DNA of 41,253 bases, from positions 1 to 41,253 of the IMG/VR virus record IMGVR_UViG_3300020193_000046; one strand, written 5' to 3'. The notes beneath the pieces were generated by a model, which was given only the letters and a program-made list of their open reading frames with translations, did not search any database and had not been told where the DNA came from. The stretch is from a virus. Positions 18,622 through 37,219 of the stretch are shown in pieces; position 1 is the stretch's first letter; each line of letters starts with the position of its first letter. The position numbers and the translations under genes are program-made.

Positions 18622-18650
18622 TTGACCTTACTTACAATCTGAGGTAACGA
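18622..18650 (+). promoter_or_regulatory. promoter with dyad-symmetric spacer (TTGACC-N17-TAACGA), site 1
   Basis: TTGACC (18622-18627), 17-base spacer, TAACGA (18645-18650), then 6 bases to ATG 18657 (leaderless). The stretch TTACTTACAATCTGAGGTAA (18628-18647) has imperfect dyad symmetry and recurs at 37197 as GTACTTACAAAGTGAGGTAC. The outer base pair changes from T..A to G..C in a compensating way, as expected for a symmetric protein-binding site. Confidence 0.6.
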
Positions 18651-18656
18651 TCCTCC

Positions 18657-19235
18657 ATGCCCGAGGATCGCTCCGAGTCTCCGAAGGTCGAGGAGGTCGC
18701 GGCTCCCATCGATCCTGTCGTCGAGTGGGAGCGCAAGGTCCGTGAACGCTTCCGGTTCCGCTGTGGGAACTGCGGCGGGAGCGACCGCCTGAAGGTGCGT
18801 ATGGCGGTGCCAGAGGAGGCAGGGGGAAAGCTGGTCTCCTCGAACGGACTCCTGCTCTGCCGCCCGTGCGAGATGGCCGCCGAGACCCGTGGCCGCTCGG
18901 ACGAAGATCGACGGCCCATCAACTTCTGGGTCAGCCGGAGCCTCTACGACCGCCTTCAGAATGGGCTCCGCACTCGGGCGAAATTCCCCTCCATCGGGGC
19001 GCTGATCCGCTACCTGATGGGCAAGTACGTCGAGGACGAGAGCCGCTTCGACGACCTCCCCCAGTACATCGAGGAAGGCTCGGACGTGAAGGTGAACTGC
19101 TGGGTGGATCGAGGAACCTACGCCTCCTTCAAGGAACGCCTGGATGCCCGAGGCATGACCGTGACCGATGCGGTCAAGGCTCTGATCGTGTGCTTCGAGA
19201 CCCTTTCCGAACAGCGCGAGGAGGCCGCCGGATGA
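18657..19235 (+). CDS. DNA-binding regulator: zinc finger plus two ribbon-helix-helix repeats
   Basis: 192 residues. Residues 33-73 hold a CxxC...CxxC unit (Cys36, Cys39, Cys68, Cys71: 'RFRCGNCGG' to 'NGLLLCRPCEM') laid out like the zinc frame of HNH nucleases, but the catalytic His positions are absent, so a binding rather than cutting role is likely. Residues about 87-125 ('INFWVSRSLYDRLQNGL..FPSIGALIRYLMGKYV') and 144-182 ('VKVNCWVDRGTYASFKERLD..MTVTDAVKALIVCF') are two Arc/CopG-type ribbon-helix-helix units in tandem, which could act as a single-chain dimer. Transcription starts at or beside ATG 18657 from a promoter whose spacer is a dyad repeat, suggesting self-control. The stop overlaps the tail chaperone start. 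Confidence 0.68.
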   Translation: MPEDRSESPKVEEVAAPIDPVVEWERKVRERFRFRCGNCGGSDRLKVRMAVPEEAGGKLVSSNGLLLCRPCEMAAETRGRSDEDRRPINFWVSRSLYDRLQNGLRTRAKFPSIGALIRYLMGKYVEDESRFDDLPQYIEEGSDVKVNCWVDRGTYASFKERLDARGMTVTDAVKALIVCFETLSEQREEAAG

Positions 19236-20029
19236 GCACCACCGAACAGATGATCGTCGAGAACCAACTGCGGGAGCCGAAGTCCTCGAAGGGGGTCTAC
19301 GACCTTCCCTGTGGCTTCATTGACGAGGACGGGGTGCTCCACGGGGAGGTGGTGGTGCGGGAGATCACGGGCGCGGAGGAGGACATCCTCGCCGCTCCCA
19401 AGATGCCTGCGGTGAAGAAGATGAACGAACTCTTCGCCCGCTGCGTCGAGCGCCTGGGGACGATCTCCGACAAGGAGAAGATCGCTGCCGCCGTCCCGAG
19501 GCTCCTGGTCGGCGACCGCGTGTTCCTGATGTTCGCGCTCCGCCGCGCCTCCCTCGGCGACGACTACCCCTTCAAGGAGAAGTGCCCGGAGTGTGAGGTG
19601 GAGGGGCTGTTCAACGTCGATCTCTCCACCATGGCCGTTCGCCCGATGTCCGACTGCAAGAAGCGGATCCATGACCTCAAGCTCCCCTCGGGGAAGGCCG
19701 TTCGTTGGCACGCCCTCGACGGGGCGGGAGAGGCCAAGCTCCAGAACATCGCCCAGCGCGCCGACGCCCTCTCCCTCTCCGTGCTGGCTCGCCTCGACCT
19801 CCTCGACGGCAAGCCCCCCACCATGGAAGCCGTCAAGATCCTCTCCCTCAACGACCGGAACGCCCTTCGGGACGATTTCGAGGACAAGGAGGGCGGGGTG
19901 GACACGGAGACCGAGATGGCTTGCTCCTCCTGCGGGGCGGTCTTCATGCGGGACATCGACGTGGGGCAGAAGGGTTTTTTCTTCCCCTCGCGGACGCCGA
20001 AGAACTCGAAGAAGAGGTCTTCTTTCTGA
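19232..20029 (+). CDS. tail assembly chaperone / T4 gp26-like baseplate family protein
   Basis: 265 residues starting at an ATGA overlap with the regulator gene. The pattern 'VVVREITGAEEDILAAPKM', 'LLVGDRVFLMFALRRASLGDDYPF' and 'KCPECEVEGLFNVDLSTM' matches the T4 gp26-type baseplate family (T4_baseplate domain), which in many large phages sits just upstream of the tape measure as a tail assembly chaperone. Two CxxC pairs ('CPEC' and 'CSSC') suggest zinc binding. Near the 3' end the message contains T TTT TTC (19975-19981), a classic -1 slippery heptamer, leading into a coding extension to 20175. This short-plus-extended pair is the usual design of phage tail chaperones. Confidence 0.75.
   Translation: MSTTEQMIVENQLREPKSSKGVYDLPCGFIDEDGVLHGEVVVREITGAEEDILAAPKMPAVKKMNELFARCVERLGTISDKEKIAAAVPRLLVGDRVFLMFALRRASLGDDYPFKEKCPECEVEGLFNVDLSTMAVRPMSDCKKRIHDLKLPSGKAVRWHALDGAGEAKLQNIAQRADALSLSVLARLDLLDGKPPTMEAVKILSLNDRNALRDDFEDKEGGVDTETEMACSSCGAVFMRDIDVGQKGFFFPSRTPKNSKKRSSF
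19975..19981 (+). other. -1 programmed frameshift site (T TTT TTC)
   Basis: The heptamer lies in the correct zero-frame phase (GGT TTT TTC). Slipping back one base continues as 'LPLADAEELEEEVFFLMETLG..' to the stop at 20173-20175, giving a 314-residue fusion. A stem, AAGAAG-AGGT-CTTCTT (20009-20024), lies about 27 bases downstream, farther than the usual stimulator. Confidence 0.65.
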
Positions 20030-20175
20030 TGGAGACCCTCGGGCTCGCCTACGCCGACATCATGGCGATGCCCGCGACGCGCCGCGTCCGCCTGATCCAC
20101 AAGAAGCACGAACTCGAACAGCGCCGCGCCCAGAAGCAGCGGGAGGATCTAGCCAGAGCGCGAGCGCGCAGGTAG
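20029..20175 (+). CDS. frameshift extension of the tail assembly chaperone
   Basis: C-terminal part of the chaperone, 48 residues counted from the ATG at 20029 (overlapping the TGA stop), but most likely made as a -1 frameshift fusion with the upstream gene from 19975. The frame is open and acidic before the ATG ('ADAEELEEEVFFL'), then 'GLAYADIMAMPATRRVRLIHKKHELEQRRAQKQRE', an amphipathic, basic helix. In phage tail chaperones the extension recruits the tape measure protein. Reinitiation at the TGATG overlap could also give a separate small protein. Confidence 0.62.
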   Translation: METLGLAYADIMAMPATRRVRLIHKKHELEQRRAQKQREDLARARARR

Positions 20176-20178
20176 GAT
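20173..20178 (+). promoter_or_regulatory. -10-like TAGGAT, leaderless layout
   Basis: TAGGAT overlaps the stop of the chaperone extension and ends 6 bases before GTG 20185. There is no Shine-Dalgarno sequence and no clear -35. Confidence 0.35.
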
Positions 20179-20184
20179 CTCAGC

Positions 20185-21216
20185 GTGCGTGCAGAGATTC
20201 GACGGCTTTGGGCGCTGGTCGAGCGGAAATATCCGCCCGGAACGGTGCGTTCCTGGGCGATGGGGGATTTCGAGAAGCAGAAGGACGGCTCGTGGGTTCC
20301 GGTAGCGGCTCGGAAGACTACCGTTTCTTCCACGCCCCCGTCGAAACCCCCGCTGAAGAAGCGGCCAAGCGCACCACCCCCCAGTAACCCTGGCGAGACC
20401 CTTGTCCGGTCGATCAAGCGCCCTCCAGGCTGGAGGGCCTCCACGGACGAGCCCAACTTCAACCAGGAAACATGGCCTTCTTCCCACACCGCTGTCTCTC
20501 CGAAAGGCAGCTTGTATGTGGGAACGATCCACGCTGATCTCTCCCAGGACTCCCCGGAGATGGACTATGTGAAAGATGTTCTCGCTCCCCAAGCAGTCAA
20601 GGTGGCGCGCAAAGCGGTGCGCCAAGGGAAGAAGGTGGTGTTCTTTTCGGAGGGTCGGAAGACCGATCCTGGGGCCGCCTGGATGTTTAGCGAGCAGGAC
20701 GTTATTGGCCGGGCGCTGCACGACGCCTTCGGCGCACGAGTTGAACTCGACACCTGGGACGACTTCGCAACGGACGTGCTTGCACGCACGTCACCGATCT
20801 GGGAACGGTTGGCCCAGGTTGCCGGGGGGCGTGGCGAGGCCGAAGCCGCGATGACCGCCTTCATGGTCGGTCAGGGGGTGGCTCCAGACGACGAGGAACA
20901 TGCGGGGATCATCACGCCCCAAGCTCGGAAGATCCTCAAGAAGAAGTACGGATTGGATCTGGACCAGATCGGGAAGCAGGAGCCGGACAAGGACGGGAAC
21001 GATCCTATCGTTGCCCAACTCTATCGGATGAGCTTTCCTGGCGACTTCGGCGACCCTCACAACAGCATCTCCGCTGTGGGAGAGGTCTACAACGCGGCGC
21101 GGCAAGATCGCTTGCTTGCCAGGGTGAAAGAGGTGGAAGATGCGGGAGGTGTGGCGATCGTTTCCGCAGGCGCTTCCCATATCTACAGCCTGAAGCCTGC
21201 TGTGGAGAGGGGTTAG
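20185..21216 (+). CDS. TIKI/TraB-like putative metal-dependent hydrolase
   Basis: 343 residues from GTG 20185. The N-terminal 40 residues ('RRLWALVERKYPPGTVRSW..KDGSWVPVA') and a Pro-rich linker (about 45-80) precede a domain from about 105 to 343. That domain has the layout of the TIKI/TraB/GumN superfamily: a first GX2H ('VGTIHADLS', Gly113-His116), a Glu after a hydrophobic strand ('VVFFSEGRK', Glu156), an Arg-containing helix late in the domain ('NAARQDRLLARV') and a second GX2H at the end of the last strand ('IVSAGASHIYSL', Gly329-His332). Known members are metal-dependent proteases or related hydrolases. Finding one between tail chaperone and tape measure is unusual. The start site lacks a ribosome site and appears leaderless. 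Assignment is by motif. Confidence 0.55.
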   Translation: MRAEIRRLWALVERKYPPGTVRSWAMGDFEKQKDGSWVPVAARKTTVSSTPPSKPPLKKRPSAPPPSNPGETLVRSIKRPPGWRASTDEPNFNQETWPSSHTAVSPKGSLYVGTIHADLSQDSPEMDYVKDVLAPQAVKVARKAVRQGKKVVFFSEGRKTDPGAAWMFSEQDVIGRALHDAFGARVELDTWDDFATDVLARTSPIWERLAQVAGGRGEAEAAMTAFMVGQGVAPDDEEHAGIITPQARKILKKKYGLDLDQIGKQEPDKDGNDPIVAQLYRMSFPGDFGDPHNSISAVGEVYNAARQDRLLARVKEVEDAGGVAIVSAGASHIYSLKPAVERG

Positions 21217-21243
21217 CTAGCGATGTTCTTCTGGGCGCTCTGC

Positions 21244-21259
21244 GCGACCATGTGGTCGC
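21244..21259 (+). promoter_or_regulatory. palindromic operator-like site, copy C (best match)
   Basis: GCGACCATGTGGTCGC has perfect 7-base arms (GCGACCA/TGGTCGC) around TG. It lies in the 78-base gap before the tape measure gene; related sites are at 6577, 15753 and 37668. Confidence 0.55.
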
Positions 21260-21294
21260 TTCCCGGAAGGGGGTGGTCCCTATCGGGCTGAACT

Positions 21295-24200
21295 TTGTCG
21301 GCCTGGGTTAGCTTTACCTTCGGTGCCAAGGACGCGGGGCTTAACAAGCGTCTAAAGCACTATGGAGTGGGGTTTGGTAAGATCCACGCCGCCCTGGACG
21401 ATATGGGTGCGTCCGGCAAGAAGGGGGCGAGCGGGGTCAAGGACTTCACCTCGGCGCTTGACACCAAGCAGACGGAAGGGCTGAACGCTTCCCTGGAGAA
21501 GCTCCACGCCCTGCTCGAAGAACAGCTTCCCAACTCCTCCGCCAAGACCGGGAAGGCGATCAGGCAGCAAAGCTCCGTCTTTAACACCTACACGCGGGAC
21601 GCGGGGCGGGGCCTGAAGCTGATCGAGGGAGCGGTGAGCCGCCTGGGCAAGATCTTGTCCCAGGTGAAGCTCTCGAACTTCCTCTCCGTCTTTTCCCTCT
21701 CCCGGCTAGGGGACATCGCGCGCGGCGTCGAGAACCTCGCCACCGGGGGGCGGAACCTCACCACCGGCTACGAGGCCCAGCTTGTCCAGATGGACAAGTC
21801 CGCACGAGCGACCGCTGTCCAGTTCGGGATGACCGGGAAGGCGGTAGGGAAGTTTTCTGCCCAGGCCAGTTCGATGGCGATCGGTCTCAACATCGACGTG
21901 GGCAAGGCGTCGAGCGCGATCTACGTCTTCAACTCCAACATGGACGAACTGAAGGCGTTGGGCTTCAAGTCGGCCCAGTCCTTCGCCAAGTTCGGGGAGG
22001 TGTTGGGGGTAGATACCAACCAGTTTGGGTTCTTCGCCGCCGAGGTGAAGTCGGTTCTTGGGGACGACGCCTACGCGAAGAACGCGAAGAACCTTTTCGG
22101 GGCCTTTGGTCGGTTCGGACAGCAGTCGGGCGACGTGAAGGGGGCCTTCGACATGATGAAGGACGTGGTGCCGCAGTTGAAGGAGGCGGCGACTTCTTCC
22201 GGGCAGATCATGGACGGCGAAACGCTAGCCCGCTACGGCAAGGGCGTGGCGGTTGCCGCCGCAGGCTTCTTCGCGGTCTCCCACAACGCGGCGGAAGCCA
22301 AGTCGTTGGCCCTGAGCATGTCCAGCAACATGGTCAAGGCGCGGCAGAACATCGCCAACATGTTCGCGGGTACCGAGGGGGACCTGAGCGCGATGGCGAC
22401 CGAGCTTGGTGTGGCGACAGGCGACATCAACGCCTCGTTCAATCTTATCAAGAGCAACCCCGACGAGTTCGCCAAGGGGCTGTTCCAGATGGTTCAGGCT
22501 GCCAAGAAAAATGGGGTTCCGCTGGAGCAGCAGATGTCCTTCCTGGGAGCGCGGCTGGGGGCTGCGTTCGGCCCCGAGCAGGCTGCCCAGCTAATGCAGT
22601 TCTTCGAGAAGGGTGGGGAGAAGGCCCTCGACGCGATGGCGGACGCGCAGAGCGCGACGACCAGCCTCGCCAAGATGGGGGAGGAGGGCTACCGTACCGG
22701 CCGCACGCTGGCTGAGAGCTTCGAGCTTGCGGAGAATCGGTTCATCAAGACCTTCCGCGACGTGGGGCGAGCCGAGGCCCGGAAGTTCGTCAGTGAAACG
22801 GGGAAGGAGTTCGACAAGTTCGGGAAGAAGGCGAAGGAGATCGCCAGCGACGGCGGCCCGCTGGGTGCGATCGTCAAGAAGTTCTCGGAGATGCACCAGG
22901 TCGGTGCCCTGGCCCTTCTTCCCCAGAGCCTTCGTCCCATCGCTGCCGTGTTCGGGACCATGCTCAAGGAGGGGGCTCCCCTGATCGGGATGCTCGGTTC
23001 GCTCGGCTTCCGCCTCTCCATGCTCGGTCCCCTCCTCCCCATCGCCGCCTTCGGGGCCTTCGTGTGGGCGATGAAGTCGGCGGAGAACCAGGCGGTCGCC
23101 ACGGCCGAGGAAGCGGCCAATAGCGGGAAGTCGATGCGGGGGCTATCGCAGGGGGTCCGCGATCTCGAAAAGCAGCAGCAGAAGCTCGTGTACGGGACCG
23201 AGGCGTGGAACAACGTGCAGCGTCAGATCGACCAGAAGAACTACCTCCTCAAGATGGCGAAGGCGATGAAGGCGGCGGCGGGGGACGAGAAGAAGCTCGC
23301 CGCTCTACGGACTCAGGTCGCGGAGCACGAGCGGCAGCGTTCCATCGAGCAGGTGAAGCGCATCGCCAAGAGCGTGACCCAGAAGGTCGGAGCTTTCATG
23401 CAGGCCCTCCCCTCCATCGTTCGGGAGGGCGCGAAGATGTTCGTCGAGGTGTGGAAGGAGATCAAGGACCCGCTCCTCGACGCCCTGAAGGCCGCCTGGT
23501 CGTGGGTGAAGACGAAGGCCTGGCCCGCCATCAAGGACTTCCTGAAGGGCATGTGGGATGGCCTGATCCACGGAACCAAGGCAACCGGCACGAGCGCCTC
23601 CACCCAGCTTGGAGCCCGCATCGGCCAGGTTGTTCGGAACGCCCTCGTCTTCGCCTGGCGCTGGGCCAAGGACACCGCCTGGCCCGCCATCGTGGATTTC
23701 GTCAAGGGTGTCTGGGACGGGCTGTTCCGCCAGGCGAAGGCAGACGAGCCGAGCGCGTCGGCCCGCCTCGGAGCGAGCCTTGGTTCCGCCATCCGAGGGG
23801 CGTTCGACTACGCGGTGAAGTGGGTCAGGGACTACCTGAAGGGTTGGTGGGCGACGGTGACGGCGATCTGGACCGACTCGTCCAAGTCGTTTACCGAGAA
23901 GATCAAGGAGACCTTCAAGGCATCCGGCGGCGTCTTCGTCCTCCTTGCCGGGAGCCTCTTCCTGGTCATCCCTCTCCTCGGACGGCTCCTTACGCTGGGC
24001 GGTCTGCTCTCCGGCTCCTTTGGCCTCGTGCCCAATGTGTTCTGGCAACTGGGAAGCAGCTTGATGTTTGTTCTCAGACCCCTCGGTTCCCTGTTCAAGG
24101 GGTTCGGTCAACTGGCGGGACGTATCGGCGGGTTGGTCTTTGGCACGATCCCCAAGATCGGGTCGGTCTTCGCTTCCGTGTTCGCTGGGGTGGGTGTGCG

Positions 24201-26013
24201 GCTCCTGGCCTTCGGCAAGGGCATCCTCGCGTTCTTCGGGAGCATCTTGGCCCCGCTGGGTTCCTTGTTGATGAAAGGGTTGTCTCCCCTGATCCAGATC
24301 GGTCAGTTCGTCTGGGCGGTGATCTCTGGGTTGTTTGGCAACCTGCTCGCTTTCCTGGGTCCGGTCGGGAAGGTGTTCGTCGGCCTTTCCGCCGGAGCGT
24401 GGGCCGCGATCGGGGCGGTGGTGGCTCTGGGAGTGGCCTTCACCCTCTGGCCCGAGAAGACGCAGGCAGCGGTTGATTGGGTGACGCAGAAGATCAGGGA
24501 GTGGTTGCCCAAGCTGGTTCCGATCGTGATGAACGCTCTCGCGTTCGTGGCGGGGATGATCTGGAAGGTGGTGTCCTACGTTTGGTCCAACATGCCGCAA
24601 CTTCTCACCGGCTTGGTTAAGGCTCTTTCCGCTATCGTGGACATAGCTATAGCCGCTCTTTTGGGATTGTTCGACGGGCTCCAGAACTGGCTCATGGAGA
24701 AGTTCCCAGAGTCGGCAGGAACGATCAAGAACGTATTCGACTTCCTGAAGTCTGCCGTCGAGGTGGCAGGGAGCGCCATCAAGGTTGTTCTCAAGGTGAT
24801 CGGGTGGTCTTTCGAGGTGTTGTGGTCGGTGGCGAAGGGCGTACTCAAGGGCTTGTGGTGGGCCTTCGAGACCTTCGTGCTCACTCCTCTGGGCTGGATA
24901 TGGAAAGCGGTGAAGAAGGTGCTCTCCGCCTTCTCGGAATCCTCTAAGTATTCCGATGAACAGATTGCTCACGCCTACGAGGGCGGGGTGCATCAGATGG
25001 AAGCGATGCCCGAGAAGGCGGCGATGGCTGGTGCGGCTGCGGCTGAAGGAGCGACGCAAGCAGCCAAGGCGGTGACGGATGCGGCGGTGACGGCGAACGA
25101 GAACACCTTGAAGGCGGCTCAGAAGGGGGTGGAGGAGCAGTCGAAGAAGCTGACCGAGAATCTGGGGAAGGCCGCCGAGACTGCCGCCAGCACTACGAAC
25201 GTCACGATGCTTAGGGAACTGGAAGCGGTGGCGAAGCGCGCGATGGAAATCTCCGAGACCGCGAAGACCGAGGCTTCCGTGAACGCCGCGAAGGGTATTC
25301 TGGCTGAGATCGAAAACGCCCAGAAGGCGGCGACGGCAGCGAAATCGAAGGAGGATGTGGCGAAGGCCCAGCAAGTCCTGGATGGTCTGAAGAAGCAGGC
25401 CGCCGACCTCGAACTCCGGGTGGGGAAGACCCAGGTGGGAGGCTTCGAGAGCACTCCGGCCAGCCTGGAAGCGTTTGCCGGACCAGCGGTGAAGAAGAAG
25501 CGCAAGGGAGGCTGGACGGAGGAGATGGGACAGCAGGTCGTGGACGGCTACCAGAAGGCGATGGGGACGATGACCGAGAACTCCAAGGTCTTCCTGACCG
25601 AGCAGATCAAGACCTTCGGGACCCTCACCGACACCATCGTCCAAAAGTTCCAGTCCGCGTGGGACCGGATCTTGGAAGCCTCCGGCCGGTTCGCCGAGCA
25701 GCTTTCCGAGCAGGTCAGCCAGGCCCTCCTCCGCATCGAGACCCTGGCCGCCACCGCCCAGGCCGTCCAGGTGCTCTCCGAGGCCCCGCGCGCGGCCCCT
25801 CCTCCGGCCCTCTCCAAGCCGATGACCAAGGAGGAGCGGGAGGACGCGCTCCTTCAAGCGACCCACTGGCCCCAGTGGTACGAGGAGTACCGGGTGCAGT
25901 TCGCCAAGCAGATGCTCGGGCTTCAGGGCGCGATCCAGAAGTCCGGCACCTCCCAAGAACCCGTTCGACGTGGGAAAGCCCTCCCCCCAGTACGCGGGAA
26001 CCCAACGGAGTAG
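21295..26013 (+). CDS. tail tape measure protein
   Basis: 1572 residues, the largest gene here, sitting between tail chaperone and baseplate hub as tape measures do. It sets tail length; at the usual rough figure of 0.15 nm per residue the tail would be about 235 nm (inference). The sequence is helical and Ala/Lys-rich, with hydrophobic stretches near residues 560-600, 878-935, 965-1055 and 1085-1150 that could cross the host membrane during ejection. Two 53-residue repeats occur at about 734-839. An Ala/Lys coiled-coil region spans about 1215-1400. No lysozyme or peptidase motif was seen. Start TTG 21295 is the first after an in-frame stop at 21289; there is no clear ribosome site, so the true start could be the next in-frame ATG (21361). 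Confidence 0.9.
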   Translation: MSAWVSFTFGAKDAGLNKRLKHYGVGFGKIHAALDDMGASGKKGASGVKDFTSALDTKQTEGLNASLEKLHALLEEQLPNSSAKTGKAIRQQSSVFNTYTRDAGRGLKLIEGAVSRLGKILSQVKLSNFLSVFSLSRLGDIARGVENLATGGRNLTTGYEAQLVQMDKSARATAVQFGMTGKAVGKFSAQASSMAIGLNIDVGKASSAIYVFNSNMDELKALGFKSAQSFAKFGEVLGVDTNQFGFFAAEVKSVLGDDAYAKNAKNLFGAFGRFGQQSGDVKGAFDMMKDVVPQLKEAATSSGQIMDGETLARYGKGVAVAAAGFFAVSHNAAEAKSLALSMSSNMVKARQNIANMFAGTEGDLSAMATELGVATGDINASFNLIKSNPDEFAKGLFQMVQAAKKNGVPLEQQMSFLGARLGAAFGPEQAAQLMQFFEKGGEKALDAMADAQSATTSLAKMGEEGYRTGRTLAESFELAENRFIKTFRDVGRAEARKFVSETGKEFDKFGKKAKEIASDGGPLGAIVKKFSEMHQVGALALLPQSLRPIAAVFGTMLKEGAPLIGMLGSLGFRLSMLGPLLPIAAFGAFVWAMKSAENQAVATAEEAANSGKSMRGLSQGVRDLEKQQQKLVYGTEAWNNVQRQIDQKNYLLKMAKAMKAAAGDEKKLAALRTQVAEHERQRSIEQVKRIAKSVTQKVGAFMQALPSIVREGAKMFVEVWKEIKDPLLDALKAAWSWVKTKAWPAIKDFLKGMWDGLIHGTKATGTSASTQLGARIGQVVRNALVFAWRWAKDTAWPAIVDFVKGVWDGLFRQAKADEPSASARLGASLGSAIRGAFDYAVKWVRDYLKGWWATVTAIWTDSSKSFTEKIKETFKASGGVFVLLAGSLFLVIPLLGRLLTLGGLLSGSFGLVPNVFWQLGSSLMFVLRPLGSLFKGFGQLAGRIGGLVFGTIPKIGSVFASVFAGVGVRLLAFGKGILAFFGSILAPLGSLLMKGLSPLIQIGQFVWAVISGLFGNLLAFLGPVGKVFVGLSAGAWAAIGAVVALGVAFTLWPEKTQAAVDWVTQKIREWLPKLVPIVMNALAFVAGMIWKVVSYVWSNMPQLLTGLVKALSAIVDIAIAALLGLFDGLQNWLMEKFPESAGTIKNVFDFLKSAVEVAGSAIKVVLKVIGWSFEVLWSVAKGVLKGLWWAFETFVLTPLGWIWKAVKKVLSAFSESSKYSDEQIAHAYEGGVHQMEAMPEKAAMAGAAAAEGATQAAKAVTDAAVTANENTLKAAQKGVEEQSKKLTENLGKAAETAASTTNVTMLRELEAVAKRAMEISETAKTEASVNAAKGILAEIENAQKAATAAKSKEDVAKAQQVLDGLKKQAADLELRVGKTQVGGFESTPASLEAFAGPAVKKKRKGGWTEEMGQQVVDGYQKAMGTMTENSKVFLTEQIKTFGTLTDTIVQKFQSAWDRILEASGRFAEQLSEQVSQALLRIETLAATAQAVQVLSEAPRAAPPPALSKPMTKEEREDALLQATHWPQWYEEYRVQFAKQMLGLQGAIQKSGTSQEPVRRGKALPPVRGNPTE
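23494..23811 (+). repeat. two tandem 53-residue repeats in the tape measure gene
   Basis: 'AWSWVKTKAWPAIKDFLKGM' (from 23494) is repeated as 'AWRWAKDTAWPAIVDFVKGV' (from 23653), each followed by 'WDGL', a 'KA...SAS..LGA..G' linker and an Arg-Ala helix. A third partial copy ('YAVKWVRDYLKGWW') follows. The period is 159 bases. Confidence 0.75.
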
Positions 26014-26016
26014 TCG

Positions 26017-26322
26017 ATGCCGGTTCGCGTGCCGACGACCAGCCGCCTTCGCTTCCTCGACCTTGTGGTCGTGGACGGGGTGACGTTCTGGGATCTTCCC
26101 GAACTCCCAGACTTCCTTCCTCAGCCCGACGACCGGACGCATGTCGTCGAGGGGCACGATCGGCTCGACATCCTGGCCGACCGCTACTACGGGGACGTGA
26201 CTCTCGGCTGGGTCATCGCGCATGCGAACGACATCGCGCTTCTTCCCATCGACCTTCAGGTGGGATCGACGCTGCGCATCCCGTCCCGGCGCTACGTGCT
26301 GGACCTCCTCCAGCGCGCGTAG
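26017..26322 (+). CDS. LysM-domain baseplate protein (gpX/gp53-like)
   Basis: 101 residues. Residues about 42-92 form a LysM fold: 'THVVEGHDRLDILADRYYGD', then 'LGWVIAHANDI' and 'LQVGSTLRIPSRRYV'. In contractile phages a small LysM protein (P2 gpX, or the LysM part of T4 gp53) is part of the baseplate and helps hold it to the tube. It comes 3 bases after the tape measure stop with CGGAG upstream of ATG 26017, the usual position for this protein. Confidence 0.82.
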   Translation: MPVRVPTTSRLRFLDLVVVDGVTFWDLPELPDFLPQPDDRTHVVEGHDRLDILADRYYGDVTLGWVIAHANDIALLPIDLQVGSTLRIPSRRYVLDLLQRA

Positions 26323-26328
26323 CAGACG

Positions 26329-29131: not shown

Positions 29132-29147
29132 TCTGTCGCCGATGGTG

Positions 29148-29153: not shown

Positions 29154-29160
29154 CTCGACC

Positions 29161-29538
29161 GTGGCCGCGCTCTACAGAGGCATCGCCTTTCCCTTCCAAC
29201 AGGGAGACACCTCCTTCCCGGAGGCGGCGACTGACAATGACTTGATCCGGCAGTCGCTCCTCCAGATCGTGCTCACCCAGAAGGGGGAGCGGGTGATGCG
29301 CCCTGACTTCGGGACGAACGTGTTCTCCTACGTCTTCGAGAACAACAACGATGTCCTCGAAGAGATGATCCGGGTGGACGTGTCCCAGGCCGTCGCCCGC
29401 TACGAGCCTCGGGTCCTTGTGCGTGCCATCGACGTGACGCGCGAGGATACCACGATCAACATCACCGTCCGGTACGTGATCGTGGCGACCCGGCAGGAGG
29501 ACAGCGTACAGATCCCTGTCCCCGGAGGGACTACCTGA
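29161..29538 (+). CDS. baseplate wedge protein gp25-like (GPW/gp25 family)
   Basis: 125 residues from GTG 29161. Small conserved wedge protein that organises sheath attachment. The family pattern is clear: 'GIAFPFQ', 'DNDLIRQSLLQIVLTQKGERVMRPDFGTNVFSYVFE', then 'VSQAVARYEPRVLVRAIDV' and 'INITVRYVI'. The adjoining gpJ/gp6 gene is the usual neighbour. The upstream frame is open but has no start that avoids the previous gene, and the TAAGAT box 7 bases before GTG supports this start. The stop overlaps the gpJ start. Confidence 0.87.
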   Translation: MAALYRGIAFPFQQGDTSFPEAATDNDLIRQSLLQIVLTQKGERVMRPDFGTNVFSYVFENNNDVLEEMIRVDVSQAVARYEPRVLVRAIDVTREDTTINITVRYVIVATRQEDSVQIPVPGGTT

Positions 29539-31700
29539 TGCCGAACCCGCTCATCCCCGCGCTCAACCGTGCTCTCTATGTGGGGTACGACTTCGATACC
29601 TACGTGGACGATCTGCGAGCGCGCCTCCAGGTTACGTTCGCCGCCGAGTTCAACGACTTCGCTCTCTCGTCGCTGGGCATCCTGCTCCTCGACCTGATGG
29701 CCTACGGGCTGGACACCCTGAGCTTCTTCCTCGACCGTCGGACCTCGGACAACTACCTGGCGACGGCCCGGACCCGCAAGGCGGTGGCGCGCATCACTCG
29801 GCAACTCGGCTACAAGATGGGTCCGGCCGTCTCCTCCTCGGGAGACCTGAAGATCTCCCTAGCCTCCCCCCTTGGCTTCGACGTGTCGATGCCAAAGGGC
29901 TTTCGGTTCCAGGGACCGAACAACCTCCTGTTTGAGACCGCGAGGGCCGTCACCTTTCCCGCCAACAGCGTCGCCTTCAAGCTCGTGCCTTGCTACGAGG
30001 GGGAGACCTTGATCGAGGACTTCGTGTCCGATGGGACGGCCCATCAGGTGCTCGCGCTCCGCCGGGTTCCCGAAGGGAAGTTCGTGGTCCTTGGTTCGGT
30101 GAAGGTGACGGTGAACGGAGCCCCCTTCGTCGAGAACGATTTCCTCACGTTCGAGAAGACCGACCAGTTCGAGGTCGGCTACAACGACGATCCCCCCGCC
30201 GTGCGGTTCGGGGACGGGGTGGTGGGCAACATCCCCACGGCCCAAGCCAGCATCTCCATCGAGTACATCGCGTCCTCGGGAAAGATCGGACAGGTCACGA
30301 AGAACACCATCACGGCGGAGGTGATGCCGCTTGTGGTCAACTTTCAGGCTATCTCCCTGGTCATCACCAACCCCGATCCTGTAGTTGGAGGCGACGACCC
30401 GGAGACCATCGAACATGCCAAGGCGTTTGCAGGTAAGGTCTTCAAGAGCCAGAAGTCGGCAGTCACGCGCGAGGACTATGAGGCTTTGGCCGGGTCCTAC
30501 GCCGATCCGTTGTTCGGTCGGGTGGCGGTGGCGAAGGCTCTGGCAACCCGCTCCGCCAGCACAGACATCACCCTCCAGAACGCGGTGAGCGGGGTGAAGG
30601 TCGAGGTGGCGAAGCCGGTTCCGGCGGTGAACACCGGAGCGACGAACGCGACCGGGTACATCACCGGAGCCCAGGCCGACCTTACCGATCTCGGGACGGC
30701 GCTCACGAACGCGGCGGTGAAGGTCACCTCGGCGGACGGACATCTCGACACCGCCCGGATCTCGGCTCGCACCGTCAAGAACAAGGCGGAGGAGATCGTG
30801 GCCGCTGCCCAGGTGGTGCAGGACAAGGTGATCGATGGCAAGGCCACCATCGACGCGGTGAGCACTGGCAACCCCAGCCAACTTACCGCCCAGGACAAGG
30901 ACAACCTGAAGAAGTTTTTCGACCTCATTGCCACCCAGGCGACCTCCCTCTCTGCCTCGGCTTCTGCCGTCGGGACCAGTTCGGGAACCGAGGCGGCCGA
31001 AGTGGGAGCGGCCAAGGACGACTTGGCCGATGTGGGCCTCGATCTCGTGACCAGCGGAACCTTGCTCTACGCCGCCGAGCAGGAACGCACGGACGCTGAC
31101 GCGAAGCTCGGACTGATCCGGACCGAGGTGACCGCCATGAAGACGGCGGTGGTGAACGTCGAGGCGGCGGTGGCGACCTGGCTCGACGCCCTCTCCGACC
31201 ATGTGGACAATATCTTGGCCGCTGACTGCCAGGCCAACCTCGTCACGGTGCCGATCTTGGCGCGGGACGCCGCAGGCTTCTACACCGCTCCGTCGTCCAG
31301 CCTGGTCCAGTCCCTTCAGGCGTTCCTCGACGCGCGCAAGGAGGTGACGCAGACGGTTTCTGTGGTCTCCGGGGACTCTTTCCTGCGCCCGGTGGTGCTC
31401 ACGATCCGCGTCGGAGTCCTCCCCAACCACTCGCAGTCGGTGGTCAAGACCGCCGTCGAGGCGTTTACCGACCGGCTCCTGCGGGATCGGAAGTTCGGGG
31501 CCGGACTCTACTTCTCTGACTTCGACCCCCTAAAGCGTATCGCTGGGTTGGGCTTCTTCAACGTCACCATCGCCGGACACCAGGAGAGCGGCATCACCGT
31601 CACTACTCGGCTCGACGGGAGCGGGAACCTCGTCATCCCTGTGAGCGAGGTGATCACGAAGGGGTCGGTCACGGTGACGACCGAGGCGTTGTTGAGCTAG
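29538..31700 (+). CDS. baseplate wedge protein J / T4 gp6-like, with helical insertion
   Basis: 720 residues. Main wedge protein forming the baseplate inner ring. The N-terminus ('YDFDTYVDDLRARLQVTF', then 'LLLDLMAYGLDTLSFFLDRRTSDNYLATA') and the later 'PPAVRFGDGVVGNIPTAQASISIEYI' and 'RKEVTQTVSVVSGDSFLRPVVLTIRV' are typical of the Baseplate_J family. Between about residues 365 and 560 an Ala/Thr/Asp-rich, helical region is inserted, absent from minimal gpJ proteins; it probably projects as an arm. GGAGGG precedes ATG 29538. Confidence 0.87.
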   Translation: MPNPLIPALNRALYVGYDFDTYVDDLRARLQVTFAAEFNDFALSSLGILLLDLMAYGLDTLSFFLDRRTSDNYLATARTRKAVARITRQLGYKMGPAVSSSGDLKISLASPLGFDVSMPKGFRFQGPNNLLFETARAVTFPANSVAFKLVPCYEGETLIEDFVSDGTAHQVLALRRVPEGKFVVLGSVKVTVNGAPFVENDFLTFEKTDQFEVGYNDDPPAVRFGDGVVGNIPTAQASISIEYIASSGKIGQVTKNTITAEVMPLVVNFQAISLVITNPDPVVGGDDPETIEHAKAFAGKVFKSQKSAVTREDYEALAGSYADPLFGRVAVAKALATRSASTDITLQNAVSGVKVEVAKPVPAVNTGATNATGYITGAQADLTDLGTALTNAAVKVTSADGHLDTARISARTVKNKAEEIVAAAQVVQDKVIDGKATIDAVSTGNPSQLTAQDKDNLKKFFDLIATQATSLSASASAVGTSSGTEAAEVGAAKDDLADVGLDLVTSGTLLYAAEQERTDADAKLGLIRTEVTAMKTAVVNVEAAVATWLDALSDHVDNILAADCQANLVTVPILARDAAGFYTAPSSSLVQSLQAFLDARKEVTQTVSVVSGDSFLRPVVLTIRVGVLPNHSQSVVKTAVEAFTDRLLRDRKFGAGLYFSDFDPLKRIAGLGFFNVTIAGHQESGITVTTRLDGSGNLVIPVSEVITKGSVTVTTEALLS

Positions 31701-31704
31701 ATCG

Positions 31705-34182
31705 ATGGGCTTCGGGCACGGAAAGTTCGGGAAGAACTCCTTCGGGGAGCGGGACTGGTCCTACGAGGTTCTCTACGGTTCTCTCCCGGAACTCTATCGC
31801 ACGCAGGACACCGATGAAGTGCTCCTGGCCTGGGCCGAAGGGCAGCGTCCGGTGCTCGACATGCTGCGCCGGAAGATCCGCGACTTCGGCGACCTCCGCG
31901 ACCCCTTGAAGGTCCGCACCCGGCACGACGATGTGTTCACCCTTCGCCTCGGCCCCCGGCTGGTCCCCCAAGGCACGCTGGAACAACGGGGTGGGGACGG
32001 TTCGGTGTCCTCGTTGCGGGAGTTTTCCGCACCGACCGCGCGCTTCAAGGAATCCGATATCGGCAAGACCCTGATCCTTCGCAGCCCGAACGAACCTACC
32101 AACACCCGTTCCGTGATCATTACCCAAGTCCTGTCCCGCAGTACGGTGGGCACCGACCCCCTCCTGGTCCTCGACGCCGGACCCTTGAAGTGGGAGGTGC
32201 GCTCCCTCGCTTCGGTCCCTTCGGACTTCACCACGGTTCGCGTTCTCGGCGGCTACGTGGAGAAGGTGGCCCCGGGATGGGTCATCTCGGATGGCTACGC
32301 GGACTTCGTGGTGCGAGGACGCCGCCAGTTTCGGGTTGCGGACGATCGGAAGATCCTGACGGAGCGAGAAGGAGCGGACGGGTTGTTCGCTCAAACCAAC
32401 GCCTTCCTTCAGCCGATCTTCCAGTCCCCCACCGCGAACTTCGTTCCGGCGGACGTGGGGAAGAAGATCGTGATCTTCGCCGCCTCTCACGGGGCGAATC
32501 GCGGCAAGAAGGAGATCAAGCTGGTGCTTGGTCCTTCCACCGCCTTCCTGCTTCCTCCCGACGCTCCTACTCCGGCTCCGGTTGCTGAGGCTGGACCCCT
32601 AACCTGGGCCATCCTGCCCAACGAGGAACTCGACCTCGAAGGACAGGCGCTTCCGCGAGGGGTAGTCGAGCAGGAGGGGCTGGATCTGGAGGTGAACGTC
32701 GGAGGGAACGCCCAGAAGGTCCGTTCCTCTTCTGCCCGCTTTTTTGCGGGGGACGTAGGAAAGCTGCTCACGATCTCCGGCTCGTCCCTCGGGAACGCCG
32801 GAACCTCGACTATCGTCTCGGTCCTCTCCGCTGATACCGCTCTCGTGTCCACCTTCTTCGTTGGTCCTGAGTCCGCTCTGGGTTGGGCGCTTCGTCGCCC
32901 CACCTTGGTTGGGGATCAGACGGAGGTGACGGTTCGGGCTCCGGCTCTGCTCGACCACCTGGCCCCGGATGTGGGGATCGAGGTGGACACTCAGGAGAGC
33001 GAGGCTCGCCAGCGAAGCTGGGTAGCGAACCTGTTTCAGTGGCTCGCCTACCGGGGTCGGGACACCGCCTACGCCATCTTGGGGAGCATCAGTGGCTTCC
33101 AGGTGACCGCTGCGCCCCTGTTCTGTATCTCCAAGGGCTACTACTTGGGTTTTCCTGTCGAGCGACGGGCCGAGGTCGGGGAACCTGGTCCGGGGCGGAG
33201 CGGGCGGGACGGGTCGCTTTCGCTGTCCTCGGGCTCGGTGGTCTTCACCGCCGCTTCGGGATCCCTCCGCAAGACGGACGTGGGGCGGGAGATTCGCCTG
33301 CGGAACTCCGGCTCGGGGAACGACAAGCTCTACACCATCGCCGCCTTCCTTTCGACCACCTCCGTTCGGTTCGCTTCGACCGAGACCGCCAACCTTCCCG
33401 ACGCCAACGACGGGACGCTTCACTGGAGTGTGGTGCGGCTCTATGCCGACCGACCCCCGACCCGGCCTCGGTACGACGAGATCAATGGGGACATGCTGGC
33501 GGACGTGATCAACGTGACCAGCGGAGGGTCGAAGCACTTTCGAGTGGACGAGTTCTGCTGGCAGGACGGCTTCAGCACCCGCTTCCCGGTGACGGTGCTC
33601 CAGACCACCCTACTCGCTGGGACCACTTATGAGGTGCGGGTGCAAGGGGCGGGTGGATACCCCACCTCTCCACGGGTCGCGCAACAGACGGGCCGCTGGA
33701 GGTTCACCGATCCGAACGGTACCGCCTATTTCCTTGACACCGTGCCGGTTCAGGTGACGAACCAACCCGCCTACGCCTTCCAGGTCGGAACGCTGATCGC
33801 TCCGTCGGGCGTGGGGATGGGGTACCTCGACTACGTGTGCGAGCCCCACTACTCCTGCTACTACTGCGCCGCGAGCAAGGTTCTTCTCACGATCCAACCC
33901 GACACCATCTTGTCCGAGAGCGGCTTGGCGACCGAGAAGGCGCTCGACCGCGCGCTCGCCCGCATGGAGTTGGCGAAGCCGGTTCACCTTGAACTCATTC
34001 CTAAGATCATACAACCCGTTGAGGTAACAATCGCCTTCTCGGTGACGGTGGAGACCCTGTTGTACGAGCAGCCCGACGGCATCTACGTGGTTGCCACCGG
34101 CAACTACTACGATATGGTGCCGGGAGACCTGTTCCCTGCTGACCAGGGCGCGGTCGTCACCGTGCAACAGACCTTGCCCTAG
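31705..34182 (+). CDS. large baseplate/tail protein (P2 gpI-like position) with four beta repeats
   Basis: 825 residues, directly after gpJ where tail protein I or T4 gp7-type wedge genes lie. The N-terminus ('WSYEVLYGSLPELYRTQDTDEVLLAW') resembles the start of phage tail protein I. Four copies of a beta unit follow, near residues 111-165, 242-303, 343-397 and 512-578, each with the form '(A)RF...D(I/V)GK.L.I..S...N.G...I..VLS..T' and ending in 'L.W.V'. The C-terminal part (about 580-825) includes a Cys-rich segment ('CEPHYSCYYCAA') and a final beta region. The repeats look like elongation modules of a wedge or fibre-attachment arm. No clear ribosome site is seen before ATG 31705. Confidence 0.72.
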   Translation: MGFGHGKFGKNSFGERDWSYEVLYGSLPELYRTQDTDEVLLAWAEGQRPVLDMLRRKIRDFGDLRDPLKVRTRHDDVFTLRLGPRLVPQGTLEQRGGDGSVSSLREFSAPTARFKESDIGKTLILRSPNEPTNTRSVIITQVLSRSTVGTDPLLVLDAGPLKWEVRSLASVPSDFTTVRVLGGYVEKVAPGWVISDGYADFVVRGRRQFRVADDRKILTEREGADGLFAQTNAFLQPIFQSPTANFVPADVGKKIVIFAASHGANRGKKEIKLVLGPSTAFLLPPDAPTPAPVAEAGPLTWAILPNEELDLEGQALPRGVVEQEGLDLEVNVGGNAQKVRSSSARFFAGDVGKLLTISGSSLGNAGTSTIVSVLSADTALVSTFFVGPESALGWALRRPTLVGDQTEVTVRAPALLDHLAPDVGIEVDTQESEARQRSWVANLFQWLAYRGRDTAYAILGSISGFQVTAAPLFCISKGYYLGFPVERRAEVGEPGPGRSGRDGSLSLSSGSVVFTAASGSLRKTDVGREIRLRNSGSGNDKLYTIAAFLSTTSVRFASTETANLPDANDGTLHWSVVRLYADRPPTRPRYDEINGDMLADVINVTSGGSKHFRVDEFCWQDGFSTRFPVTVLQTTLLAGTTYEVRVQGAGGYPTSPRVAQQTGRWRFTDPNGTAYFLDTVPVQVTNQPAYAFQVGTLIAPSGVGMGYLDYVCEPHYSCYYCAASKVLLTIQPDTILSESGLATEKALDRALARMELAKPVHLELIPKIIQPVEVTIAFSVTVETLLYEQPDGIYVVATGNYYDMVPGDLFPADQGAVVTVQQTLP

Positions 34183-34194
34183 AGGAGATCGCCG

Positions 34195-34656
34195 ATGCCT
34201 CTCGTCCCCGGAATCCTCACCGACGCGGCCCGCAACGCATGGCCGCGCATGTTCTACGGCGATGTCGTCTTCAAGAATATCTCCTACGTCAAGTTCGGGG
34301 AGGGGGGCTGGGTCGATCCTGGAAACGGGCGGGTTCCTCGCACCGCGAGCCAGATGACCGGGCTCACCAATCTCGACTGCGTGGTGAACCCGAACAACTA
34401 CCCGGTGGACAGCCGAGGCACCTACCAGAAGAACCTGGCTCCGGCGGACTTCTCCATCGAGAACAACTCGGTCCTGAAGATCCGATGCTTCCTCGACTTC
34501 GGGGACTGGAACGATGATGGGAACGGGAACAACCCGGAGATCTGGGAGTTGGGGGTGTTCGACGAGTCCAACCGCCTCGTCGCTTATGCTACCTTCCAGA
34601 AGATCACGAAGGACAACACCAAGCAGCTTGAGCAGTTTGTAAGGATCGGGTTCTAG
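34195..34656 (+). CDS. putative baseplate-to-fibre structural protein
   Basis: 153 residues with a strong site (AGAGGAGA) before ATG 34195. It is predicted all-beta: 'YVKFGEGGWVDP', then 'SVLKIRCFLDFGDWNDDGNG' and 'ELGVFDESNRLVAYATFQKI', ending 'TKQLEQFVRIGF'. This pattern recurs in phage tail-fibre connector or fibre-base proteins, but I cannot name the family. The Asp/Asn/Gly-rich loop ('DWNDDGNGNNPE') could bind a metal ion. Position at the start of the fibre block fits. Confidence 0.62.
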   Translation: MPLVPGILTDAARNAWPRMFYGDVVFKNISYVKFGEGGWVDPGNGRVPRTASQMTGLTNLDCVVNPNNYPVDSRGTYQKNLAPADFSIENNSVLKIRCFLDFGDWNDDGNGNNPEIWELGVFDESNRLVAYATFQKITKDNTKQLEQFVRIGF

Positions 34657-34665
34657 GAGCCACCC

Positions 34666-36771
34666 ATGCCCAGCACTCTCCTCACCTTCGCCGCCGCCGA
34701 GACCCGTTGTCGGTGGTTCGAGCCTTACGTGACCGAGGGGCTGAACGCGAAGCTCGCGGCCAACACCCCTCCTGGGGTCTACCGGGGTTTCCGGCTCACG
34801 ACTTCCCAGAACGCCCTCACGGTGAAGCTCGCTGCCGATCCGGCCGCTTCCGACCATGTGGCCGTGGTCGAGACCGCTGACCCCTACTCGCTCACCGTTC
34901 GCAAGGGGGGCGGGGACTTCGAGTTGGATCTCCAAGCCCTAGTAGGGCAGGACGTGGTGCTGGCGATCTACGTCACCTACGTCATCGGTCAGAACACCTC
35001 GGCCATCCTTCGGGCCTACACCATCAACGAGTACAACGCCCTCTCCGCCGCCGCAAGGCGCGCTCTCTGTGTGTTAGGGAGGGTGGTGGTGCCGGGCAAC
35101 GGAATCATCCCGGGGGCGAACCTGAGCCTCGCCCCCCGCTCCTCGGCCTGGCGGGGCCTCGCGCAGGAGGCGGCTCCCTGGACCCCGCTCCTCCGTAACG
35201 GGGGGTTCGAGATCGGTCCGGTGGGATCGCTTCTGAACCACCGGCTCCCCTTCTGGACCTCCTCCGTGATTTCCAACGCCTACGCGGTGGTCATCGACAC
35301 GGCAGGAGCAAACGCCTACGCCGGTTCCGGTAGCCTCCTCCTGACGGTCGTGACTCCGCCGGTCCAGGCGAACGGCGAGGTCCACCAGGCCCTCGGGATG
35401 CCGGTCTACGCGGAGCAGCAGCTTCGCCTAGAGGCCCATTTCCGCCTCGACCAGCAGCTTTCCGCCGGGGAGATCAACCTCGTCGTCGAGTGGGGGGACA
35501 AGCTTGGGACAGACATCAACACGCCCTCCAAGCTCCTGCTCGCCGACCAGAACTCCAACCCCGATGGCATCTACTACCTGAAGTCCAAGGTCGTGCTCGC
35601 CCCGGCGAACGCTCGGTCGCTCCGGCGGATCTACTTGGAGTTCGACGGGGCGGAGTTCCAAGGCAACAACGCCGCCTGTCACATTGACGACGTGCAGGCG
35701 TGGCTGGAGCCGCACGACGCCCGCACCGTGCCGTTCGAGGAGCAGCGTCGGGCCGTCGCCGCCTCCCTCCTCACGTTGGAGGGGCCGCAGACCACGCCCT
35801 TCGACGGCAACGCTCTGCTCTTGGAGTTCGACCCGTCCTTTACGACGGGTGCGGGTGGGAAGGTGGTGGCCGGGGCGCGCTGGGTGAACAACCTGCCGCC
35901 GCTCCTCCAGTGGCTCGGAAGGATGATCCTCGGCCCGGGGGTCTTCAACGCCGCGCTCGACGACCTTCCTCGCCTTGACATCCCCACCTTCGGAGGAAGT
36001 CGGCGGATTGCCCTCGCTCGTTTCGGGGGGGAGAACAACTCGACCGCCGATTCCGGGGTTCGCCTCTACCTCTCGCCCGAGGAGGGGTTGGAGATCGCCG
36101 CCAACTGCTACTGGGACACGGCTGCTGGGAAGTGGAAGAACGAGCGGTTCGACGCCAACGGGTCGCGGGCGGTGCTCTACGTCTTCGGGAGCGTGATGGC
36201 GAACGTAACCTCCAACGACCTGACCATCAAGGTCAGGAACTTCACCGTCGCCGACGAGTGGACCGACGCCCAGTGGGACTTCGACGCTCTCCGCTTCTCG
36301 GGGCCTACCGCCGATCGTACCACCGGCTTCGGGACGGTGCTTGAACTCCGGGACGGGCTGCTCGAACTGTTCACGCCGACGACCGACACCTACGGCTCGA
36401 ACCTCCCCTTCGATTCCGGGGGCTTCGGCTCGAATCGGCTGTTCGCCAAGTCGATCCCGAAGGGGTGGGGGTATGTGGAGATTGTCAACGGGGTCATCGT
36501 CGCCAACTCGCGCGAGGGCCTGAACTACGCTCTTTCGTTCGATGGTAACGGGCGGGTGGTCATCACCTTCAACAGCAACATGAACTCGACGAAGTTTGCC
36601 GTGCATCCGACGCTCTATCGGTCCTCGAACGGGGACTACCTGGACGTGAGCAACTGGGCGCAGAACTACGTCGAGTTGACCCTGCGGGACAAGGACGGGG
36701 TGGCGAAGGACATTGTGGCGGGGAACCTCTCGCTGACCTTCTCCTGGATCGTGTTCGGCGTCCAGACGTGA
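34666..36771 (+). CDS. putative tail fibre/appendage protein with carbohydrate-binding-like domain
   Basis: 701 residues, AGGAG before ATG 34666. Residues 1-165 are a beta/alpha N-terminal part similar to fibre or baseplate attachment regions. Residues about 180-350 ('LLRNGGFEIGPV', 'LPFWTSSVIS', 'AYAGSGSLLLTVV', then 'RRIYLEFDGAEFQGNNAACHIDDVQAWLE') have the layout of a CBM4/9-type jelly roll, a fold that often binds sugars. The remainder is beta-rich ('FTVADEWTDAQWDFDALRFSG', 'NYALSFDGNGRVVITF'). The likely role is binding the host surface. The end overlaps a TAGGGT box. Confidence 0.6.
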   Translation: MPSTLLTFAAAETRCRWFEPYVTEGLNAKLAANTPPGVYRGFRLTTSQNALTVKLAADPAASDHVAVVETADPYSLTVRKGGGDFELDLQALVGQDVVLAIYVTYVIGQNTSAILRAYTINEYNALSAAARRALCVLGRVVVPGNGIIPGANLSLAPRSSAWRGLAQEAAPWTPLLRNGGFEIGPVGSLLNHRLPFWTSSVISNAYAVVIDTAGANAYAGSGSLLLTVVTPPVQANGEVHQALGMPVYAEQQLRLEAHFRLDQQLSAGEINLVVEWGDKLGTDINTPSKLLLADQNSNPDGIYYLKSKVVLAPANARSLRRIYLEFDGAEFQGNNAACHIDDVQAWLEPHDARTVPFEEQRRAVAASLLTLEGPQTTPFDGNALLLEFDPSFTTGAGGKVVAGARWVNNLPPLLQWLGRMILGPGVFNAALDDLPRLDIPTFGGSRRIALARFGGENNSTADSGVRLYLSPEEGLEIAANCYWDTAAGKWKNERFDANGSRAVLYVFGSVMANVTSNDLTIKVRNFTVADEWTDAQWDFDALRFSGPTADRTTGFGTVLELRDGLLELFTPTTDTYGSNLPFDSGGFGSNRLFAKSIPKGWGYVEIVNGVIVANSREGLNYALSFDGNGRVVITFNSNMNSTKFAVHPTLYRSSNGDYLDVSNWAQNYVELTLRDKDGVAKDIVAGNLSLTFSWIVFGVQT

Positions 36772-36777
36772 TAGGGT
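36769..36777 (+). promoter_or_regulatory. extended -10 element, leaderless layout (TGATAGGGT)
   Basis: TG-A-TAGGGT spans the stop of the 34666 gene and ends 6 bases before ATG 36784, which has no Shine-Dalgarno sequence. Confidence 0.4.
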
Positions 36778-36783
36778 GATGCC

Positions 36784-37194
36784 ATGCCGGTTCGCGTTCG
36801 CTACTCGATCAAGGCGGTCATCTCCTCCACCACGGCGGAGGAGAAGGACTTGGGGAACCAGTCCTGGGAGGTGATGACCGACACGCAGGGTGAAGGAGGG
36901 GCGTGGAAGGTTCTGATTCCCAAGACCTCCACCGACCTCCAGGTACCTCTGGGAAGCGTCGCGGCGGCCAAGCTCGTCGTTCTTCGCACGCTGTCCAAGG
37001 ATCCCACCCTGGCGCTCCCGGACATCACGATCAAGAAGAACGCCAACAACGGGGAAGCCATCGTCATCCGTCCGCTCGGCGACCAGAAGGAGGGTCACTT
37101 CCTTCTCTCGACCAGCGGCATCACCGCGCTCTACGTGACCAACCCCTCAGCCACCGTGGACGTAGAGATGGTGGTCGTGGTGGTTGGCGATTGA
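36784..37194 (+). CDS. small beta-rich virion protein candidate
   Basis: 136 residues. Strand-rich with alternating Val/Ile ('VRVRYSIKAVIS', 'AAAKLVVLRTL', 'ATVDVEMVVVVVGD'), no signal peptide or membrane segment, not recognised as a family. Located among fibre genes; probably a minor structural or decoration protein. The start is leaderless-looking: TAGGGT ends 6 bases before the ATG and no ribosome site is present. Confidence 0.6.
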   Translation: MPVRVRYSIKAVISSTTAEEKDLGNQSWEVMTDTQGEGGAWKVLIPKTSTDLQVPLGSVAAAKLVVLRTLSKDPTLALPDITIKKNANNGEAIVIRPLGDQKEGHFLLSTSGITALYVTNPSATVDVEMVVVVVGD

Positions 37195-37219
37195 TCGTAC
37201 TTACAAAGTGAGGTACTAC
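37191..37219 (+). promoter_or_regulatory. promoter with dyad-symmetric spacer (TTGATC-N17-TACTAC), site 2
   Basis: TTGATC (37191-37196), 17-base spacer, TACTAC (37214-37219). The spacer and flanks match site 1 at 18622 at most positions (shared TACTTACAA..TGAGGTA). GTACTTACAAAGTGAGGTAC (37197-37216) is its dyad. AAGGGA follows as ribosome site for ATG 37231. Confidence 0.6.

Follow-up and report, generated by a model that had tools for sequence, protein, structure and literature searches.

A predicted tandem ribbon-helix-helix autoregulator and its candidate operators in the tail module of an uncultured phage

Why does a phage carry two near-identical promoter-like sequences 18.6 kb apart, one of them directly before a gene for a putative DNA-binding protein? 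The window, by which we mean the whole stretch of DNA analysed (an IMG/VR record of 41,253 bp), comes from a contractile-tail phage and carries its structural module. It contains the sheath gene (11278-13848), two tail-tube-like genes at 14573 and 15153, named by position and mutual similarity and not by a family match, and the tape measure gene (21295-26013), from which tail and fibre genes run to the window end. A ribonucleotide reductase gene (15772-18384) sits within this tail module; in many relatives it is absent or located elsewhere. In one relative (L003), an open reading frame at 3026-3901, by eye LAGLIDADG homing endonuclease-like, lies between the two tail-tube genes. The original prediction was that the two promoters share a dyad in their spacers, and that the protein encoded behind the first of them binds it, forming a self-controlled switch that also acts on the distant fibre and metalloprotease genes.

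On re-reading of the sequence, the positions given for the two sites and their common spacer core were correct. Both lie on the plus strand. Site 1 (18622-18650) consists of TTGACC (18622-18627), a 17-nt spacer and TAACGA (18645-18650), and reads TTGACC-T-TACTTACAATCTGAGGTA-ACGA in full; site 2 (37191-37219) consists of TTGATC (37191-37196), a 17-nt spacer and TACTAC, and reads TTGATC-G-TACTTACAAAGTGAGGTA-CTAC. The dyads, which we regard as candidate operators 1 (18629-18646, TACTTACAATCTGAGGTA) and 2 (37198-37215, TACTTACAAAGTGAGGTA), share the core TACTTACAA-NN-TGAGGTA. At site 1 the dyad corresponds to the spacer together with the initial TA of the -10 element, and the ATG of the regulator gene follows 10 nt further on; after operator 2 the ATG of gene 37231 follows at 15 nt. 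The genes of the window are densely packed, and the two intergenic gaps (18615-18656 and 37195-37230) are short and mostly occupied by the sites; TTGATC of site 2 even overlaps the stop of gene 36784-37194. With up to three mismatches allowed, the 18-mer occurs only twice in the 41,253 bp (shuffled mean 0.01), of which only the second copy is informative because the pattern was derived from the sites themselves. A possible, weak third operator (CACTTCGCAGATGAAGTC, 15096-15113, plus strand) lies in the gap between the two tail-tube genes. It ranked third among the matrix matches in the window, with a score of 7.8 as compared to 19.5 for the two main sites; in the relative L038 the corresponding gap contains a strong dyad.

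A motif search beyond the two sites, which could have gone against the original prediction by finding the dyad absent or unconserved, found it kept before the regulator gene, in 19 of 22 and then in 10 of 16 distinct loci. Single-query searches with genes 19232, 37231 and 29538 yielded no relatives, whereas the sheath protein led to 62 loci, about 30 of them collinear with the window. In nearly all collinear relatives the 18657 gene lies directly 5' of the gene for a PF12322 protein. The window dyad is imperfect; invariant among the relatives is the frame TAC-N12-GTA, with the half-site TAC(T/C/A)(T/G)CA. This frame was present just upstream of the 18657 gene in the 19 loci (the 22 include the window), whereas any other spacing (2-11 or 13-30) occurred in 0-2 of the same loci. 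In 2000 shuffles of the last 60 nt upstream, it was found in 0.23 loci on average and in three at most. The second, blind set came from a protein-alignment search (46 loci) and comprised the 16 distinct loci outside those that had defined the frame; besides the ten exact dyads, seven of which lie 10 or 11 nt ahead of the start codon, two further loci have one mismatch. One of the ten is G016, in which a dyad at 152,263 was flagged before the gene had been found at about 152.3 kb. The regulator gene, normally located near the sheath, has moved in this genome, and the dyad still directly precedes it.

Other loci vary this arrangement. Three (L027, L030, L031) have tandem sites of the form TAC-N12-GTA-N5-TAC-N12-GTA, 23 bp apart; in L046 a copy of the dyad is found one gene upstream of the usual place; L034 has a copy with one mismatch, and L125 and L141 are also near misses. 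Neither an exact dyad nor a near miss precedes the gene in L050, L104, L117, L142 and L149. Across the whole records of the main clade (25), the pattern TACNKMN6KMNGTA gave 48 forward matches versus 8 for the reversed control. The exact core TACTTACAA-NN-TGAGGTA, in contrast, was found at 20 places in all viral contigs, mostly coding or AT-rich and unrelated. Hence it is the TAC-N12-GTA frame that travels among relatives and not the exact 16-mer. A DNA search in cultured phages returned no matches, and a scan of a genome collection only one short contig of a metagenome-assembled genome (L149).

The regulator gene (18657-19235, plus strand) encodes 192 residues, which in the AlphaFold model (pLDDT 88.5) form a zinc-ribbon/HNH fold (residues 17-81) followed by two beta-alpha-alpha units. 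These ribbon-helix-helix (RHH) units, RHH1 (85-126; strand 85-92, helices 94-107 and 113-126) and RHH2 (144-191; strand 144-151, helices 152-165 and 169-191), are two copies that together make a two-stranded sheet. Foldseek on its own found nothing at E<=0.001. With VIA-align, residues 84-185 were superimposed on chain 9f10_E of the F relaxosome (Z 10.2, 98 residues, 9% identity), which we take to be TraY since the entry is without TraM and the paper describes TraY of the F plasmid as carrying both halves of the RHH dimer in one chain (PMC12117103). Pfam matches in relatives are HNH, RHH_5, RHH_1 and ParG, and Pfam and NCBIfam together point to HNH and CopG/ParG-type RHH.

Residues 17-81 align with the HNH endonuclease of GVE2 (5h0m, Z 7.8) and have the zinc-bound beta-beta-alpha fold of this family; the Pfam HNH model matches 12 of 21 relatives. 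However, the residues of an active enzyme are gone. In 21 of 21 alignment rows the general-base histidine is missing, with M, P or L at its place, so that the catalytic D-H (as in LDHIVP) has become R/K-M/P/L, and the final N/H is replaced by E, D or A; gp75 of Tweety, by comparison, retains the D-H and the N. Judged from these residues, the N-terminal domain is an HNH fold that has lost its nuclease active site. The description of the gene as "zinc-finger/tandem ribbon-helix-helix" is thus borne out, by fold and by family models, for the tandem RHH part, whereas the supposed zinc finger turned out to be an HNH fold without the catalytic histidine.

These residues also bear on the notion that the sites have no regulatory role and arose by chance or as a mobile repeat, for example as the target of an HNH homing endonuclease. 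Homing endonucleases of the HNH type abound in phages, and HNH families are matched by all members of the alignment. Yet the catalytic residues are lost in all rows, the gene occupies a constant position in the tail operon, and spacing and position of the dyad are kept in dozens of diverged loci. Already contradicted by this conservation and by the lost residues, this reading can hardly be right.

If the dyad is a protein-binding site, it need not be the 18657 product that binds it. The binder could be a regulator of the host or some other phage factor, with the RHH gene as a mere target; binding by the 18657 product is a prediction, and some loci with the gene are without the exact dyad. However, the association holds across relatives with 38-67% G+C and thus presumably different hosts, the dyad moved along with the gene in G016, and an RHH autoregulator beside its own operator is the usual arrangement. 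The distant relative G028 argues in the same direction. At the usual gene place it encodes a 77-residue protein with a single RHH, preceded by TACTTCTATTAACAGAAGTA, in which the half-site TACTTC recurs; the perfect dyad TACTTC-N8-GAAGTA occurs once in the 178 kb of this genome, before the single-RHH gene. We therefore consider a different binder very improbable.

In G026 and G027 the gene place holds a protein with a zinc ribbon and a single RHH, and no dyad was found there. The idea that distant relatives without RHH proteins lack the dyad was dropped, since G026-G028 all have RHH proteins at this place. In distant relatives, a zinc ribbon with a single RHH, or only a single RHH, is encoded in this position at L058 (13769-14125), L059 (12938-13294) and L060 (14484-14717).

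To what extent are the sites promoters? Of the 42 dyads that are followed by a start codon, 11 have TTG exactly 7 nt before the dyad, as compared to about one for any other offset, which yields the frame TTGnnn-N17-TA; a single close clade, with TTGGCT in five loci, inflates this number. Outside this clade, TTG is found at that offset at both window sites, at two sites in L036, and in L044 and L048. The -10 position of G019, which is richer in A+T, is occupied by TATAAT, TATACT or TATAGT, as in TTGTAC-N17-TATAAT. The -10 hexamers of the window (TAACGA and TACTAC) are poor matches to the sigma-70 consensus TTGACA-N17-TATAAT, and a scan for consensus sigma-70 promoters called neither window site, so that reading the window sites as promoters depends on the relatives. 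With the ATG only 10 nt after the dyad, the mRNA would be expected to start on or next to the start codon. Elsewhere in the window, the gap 1407-1471 contains TTGACA-N17-TAGCTT with an ATG immediately after it; this good promoter has no dyad, and a leaderless mRNA may likewise be made from it.

The short distance to the start codon could also mean that the dyad acts in RNA, as a hairpin in the 5' leader with its right arm GAGGTA as ribosome-binding site, targeted by a translational repressor or by nuclease processing. A constant 10-11 nt to the start codon would fit a translational operator as well, the right arm often reads GAGG, several of the genes have no other Shine-Dalgarno sequence, and folding is favourable at a few sites (L036, -7.5 kcal/mol; L053, -7.3 kcal/mol). 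Pairing within sites, however, does not exceed the column expectation, and only 10 of 28 sites fold below -1 kcal/mol. The original prediction had seen selected symmetry in the joint change of the outer pair from T..A to G..C; the change holds for these two sites, but as a covariation signal it vanished in the larger sample, where outer pairs match at 12 of 35 sites versus 10.0 expected (permutation p=0.27). The left and right half of one site are no more alike than halves of different sites. This lack of within-site covariation suggests two copies of one half-site, recognized by a symmetric protein, and not an RNA stem. Furthermore, the L037 group has GCAGTA as right arm and a separate AAGGAG after it, the tandem sites suit a DNA-bound protein, the TATAAT-type -10 boxes of G019 overlap the dyad, and Rfam gave no match. 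Taken together, we consider control at the RNA level improbable.

The dyad is not confined to the regulator gene. When the window genes were mapped in relatives, it was found upstream of the RHH gene in 17 of 21, of g18408, a small tail gene, in 4 of 13, and of the first tail-tube gene in 5 of 27. The sheath gene, g13914 and the second tail-tube gene have it in one relative each, and the remaining mapped genes have no dyad upstream (0 or 1 of 12-27 for genes other than the first three). Further strong dyads precede three genes in G019, one of them a gp25-like wedge gene, as well as a gene of 259 codons in G009 and an FtsZ-like gene in G018. The latter dyad (L095; G018:3600-6600) lies 11 nt before an FtsZ/tubulin-like open reading frame of 391 residues (VGQGGGRIAESF).

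Site 2 has counterparts in two relatives, G009 (L152) and G024 (L156). In both, the 37231 homologue is directly preceded by a gene whose product begins with MPLPxFE, and a dyad stands 9-10 nt ahead of that gene. In L044, at 6334, the same TTGATC-G-dyad arrangement stands ahead of another tail gene. In the window, operator 2 is followed by gene 37231-37668 (plus strand, 145 residues), a weak match to L-shaped tail fibre assembly proteins (phrog_1084, 2e-5; phrog_3304, 0.0026). Only 7 nt later follows gene 37676-38380 (plus strand), with the HExxH-type motif HEFVHLWD and no family match in PHROG and Pfam searches; its homologue in G020 also follows that of 37231, and the two genes probably share one transcript. 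In relatives the putative targets are mainly tail-tube and other genes of the tail module.

The gene behind the regulator (19232-20175, plus strand) belongs to PF12322, the T4_baseplate family (Pfam, 5.6e-8), and overlaps the regulator stop codon; no dyad precedes it in 21 relatives. Although its family carries the label "baseplate hub", it contains a slippery heptamer, T TTT TTC, at 19975-19981. An extension in the -1 frame (MAMPxTRRxRL...), which runs to 20175 in the window, is conserved in 15 relatives. It is therefore probably a tail assembly chaperone made with a programmed -1 frameshift. Because of the overlap, operator 1 should set the level of this chaperone too.

The interpretation that we think probable is that the 18657 product binds both sites and represses its own promoter and a tail promoter. 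As in F TraY, the two RHH domains would pair into a pseudo-dimer that acts as a single DNA-binding unit, and one dyad would take two such units, one per half-site TAC(Y/A)TCA, with half-site centres 11 bp or one helical turn apart. Since the dyad occupies the 17-bp spacer and the first two -10 bases, bound protein would block RNA polymerase. Repression of its own promoter would also set the overlapping tail-chaperone gene and the genes behind it; the second target in the window would be the tail promoter 18.6 kb downstream, and in relatives also the tail-tube genes. By this, the regulator would very probably control its own level and that of tail genes, possibly to keep the ratios of tail parts steady or to delay tail synthesis. 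Several points weigh against this: the -10 hexamers of the window are poor, TTG at -35 occurs in only about a quarter of the sites, several of them in one close clade, some loci with the gene have no exact dyad, and G026 and G027 have no dyad before their zinc-ribbon and single-RHH protein.

Sequence alone cannot tell repression from activation. MerR-type activation also uses dyads centred in the spacer, and the protein could accordingly be an activator of late tail promoters that binds the spacer like MerR. The targets are late genes, and AvtR of an archaeal virus can both activate and repress (PMC5569661). Yet MerR-type promoters have spacers of 19-20 bp and their regulators a winged-helix fold; here the spacer is 17 nt, which is already optimal, so that no distortion is needed, and the fold is RHH. 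In addition, the dyad overlaps the -10 element and the gene would need to activate itself. Activation thus seems rather unlikely. We favour repression, given that the promoter is optimally spaced and that its spacer and -10 start lie under the dyad.

How could such a regulator have arisen? Tentatively, and with more doubt than conviction, we suggest that this uncultured myovirus lineage recruited a disabled HNH nuclease, through its fusion to duplicated RHH domains, as an autoregulated controller of tail-part synthesis within the tail operon, with leaderless mRNAs starting from the operator. The single RHH of G028, the zinc ribbon and one RHH of G026 and G027, and the zinc ribbon and two RHH domains of the main clade would then be its steps; it is possible that these proteins of distant relatives represent such intermediates. 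If this were true, a virus-encoded DNA-binding protein inside the tail operon would exert feedback control on tail morphogenesis. More generally, a predicted regulator-operator pair can be read from sequence in a group of large tailed phages for which metagenomes are the only source here, genes to which automatic annotation would give the name HNH endonuclease look like transcription regulators in these phages, and the timing and dosage of their tail genes become a testable question.

Several known systems resemble parts of this arrangement. Phage HNH endonucleases (Tweety gp75, PHROG 2214, GVE2 HNH) share the N-terminal fold and the CxxC...CxxC zinc frame, but differ in the catalytic D-H and the last N/H, which are replaced in all 21 regulator homologues. 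Arc of phage P22 is an RHH repressor whose gene stands first in its own operon, and its operator lies between the -35 and -10 elements of its promoter, with half-sites about one turn apart. Unlike the 18657 product, however, it is a single RHH domain of 53 residues that binds as a dimer of dimers, and it controls lysogeny-region immI genes and not tail genes. TraY of F, structurally the closest match for the two RHH domains, is a relaxosome protein of conjugation and has no HNH part. AvtR of Acidianus filamentous virus 6, an archaeal lipothrixvirus, has tandem RHH domains in one chain, represses its own gene and has about eight binding sites in its genome, which are imperfect inverted repeats (PMC5569661). 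The likeness (one-chain tandem RHH, an operator at its own gene, several genomic sites; fold match 4hv0, Z 5.8) concerns the form of working only: AvtR belongs to an archaeal virus with archaeal promoters, has no HNH-derived domain and uses another operator, and we do not claim kinship by descent. Thus viral autoregulation by a tandem RHH protein is known, with AvtR as the closest case; new are the domain make-up, the phage clade and the late tail targets.
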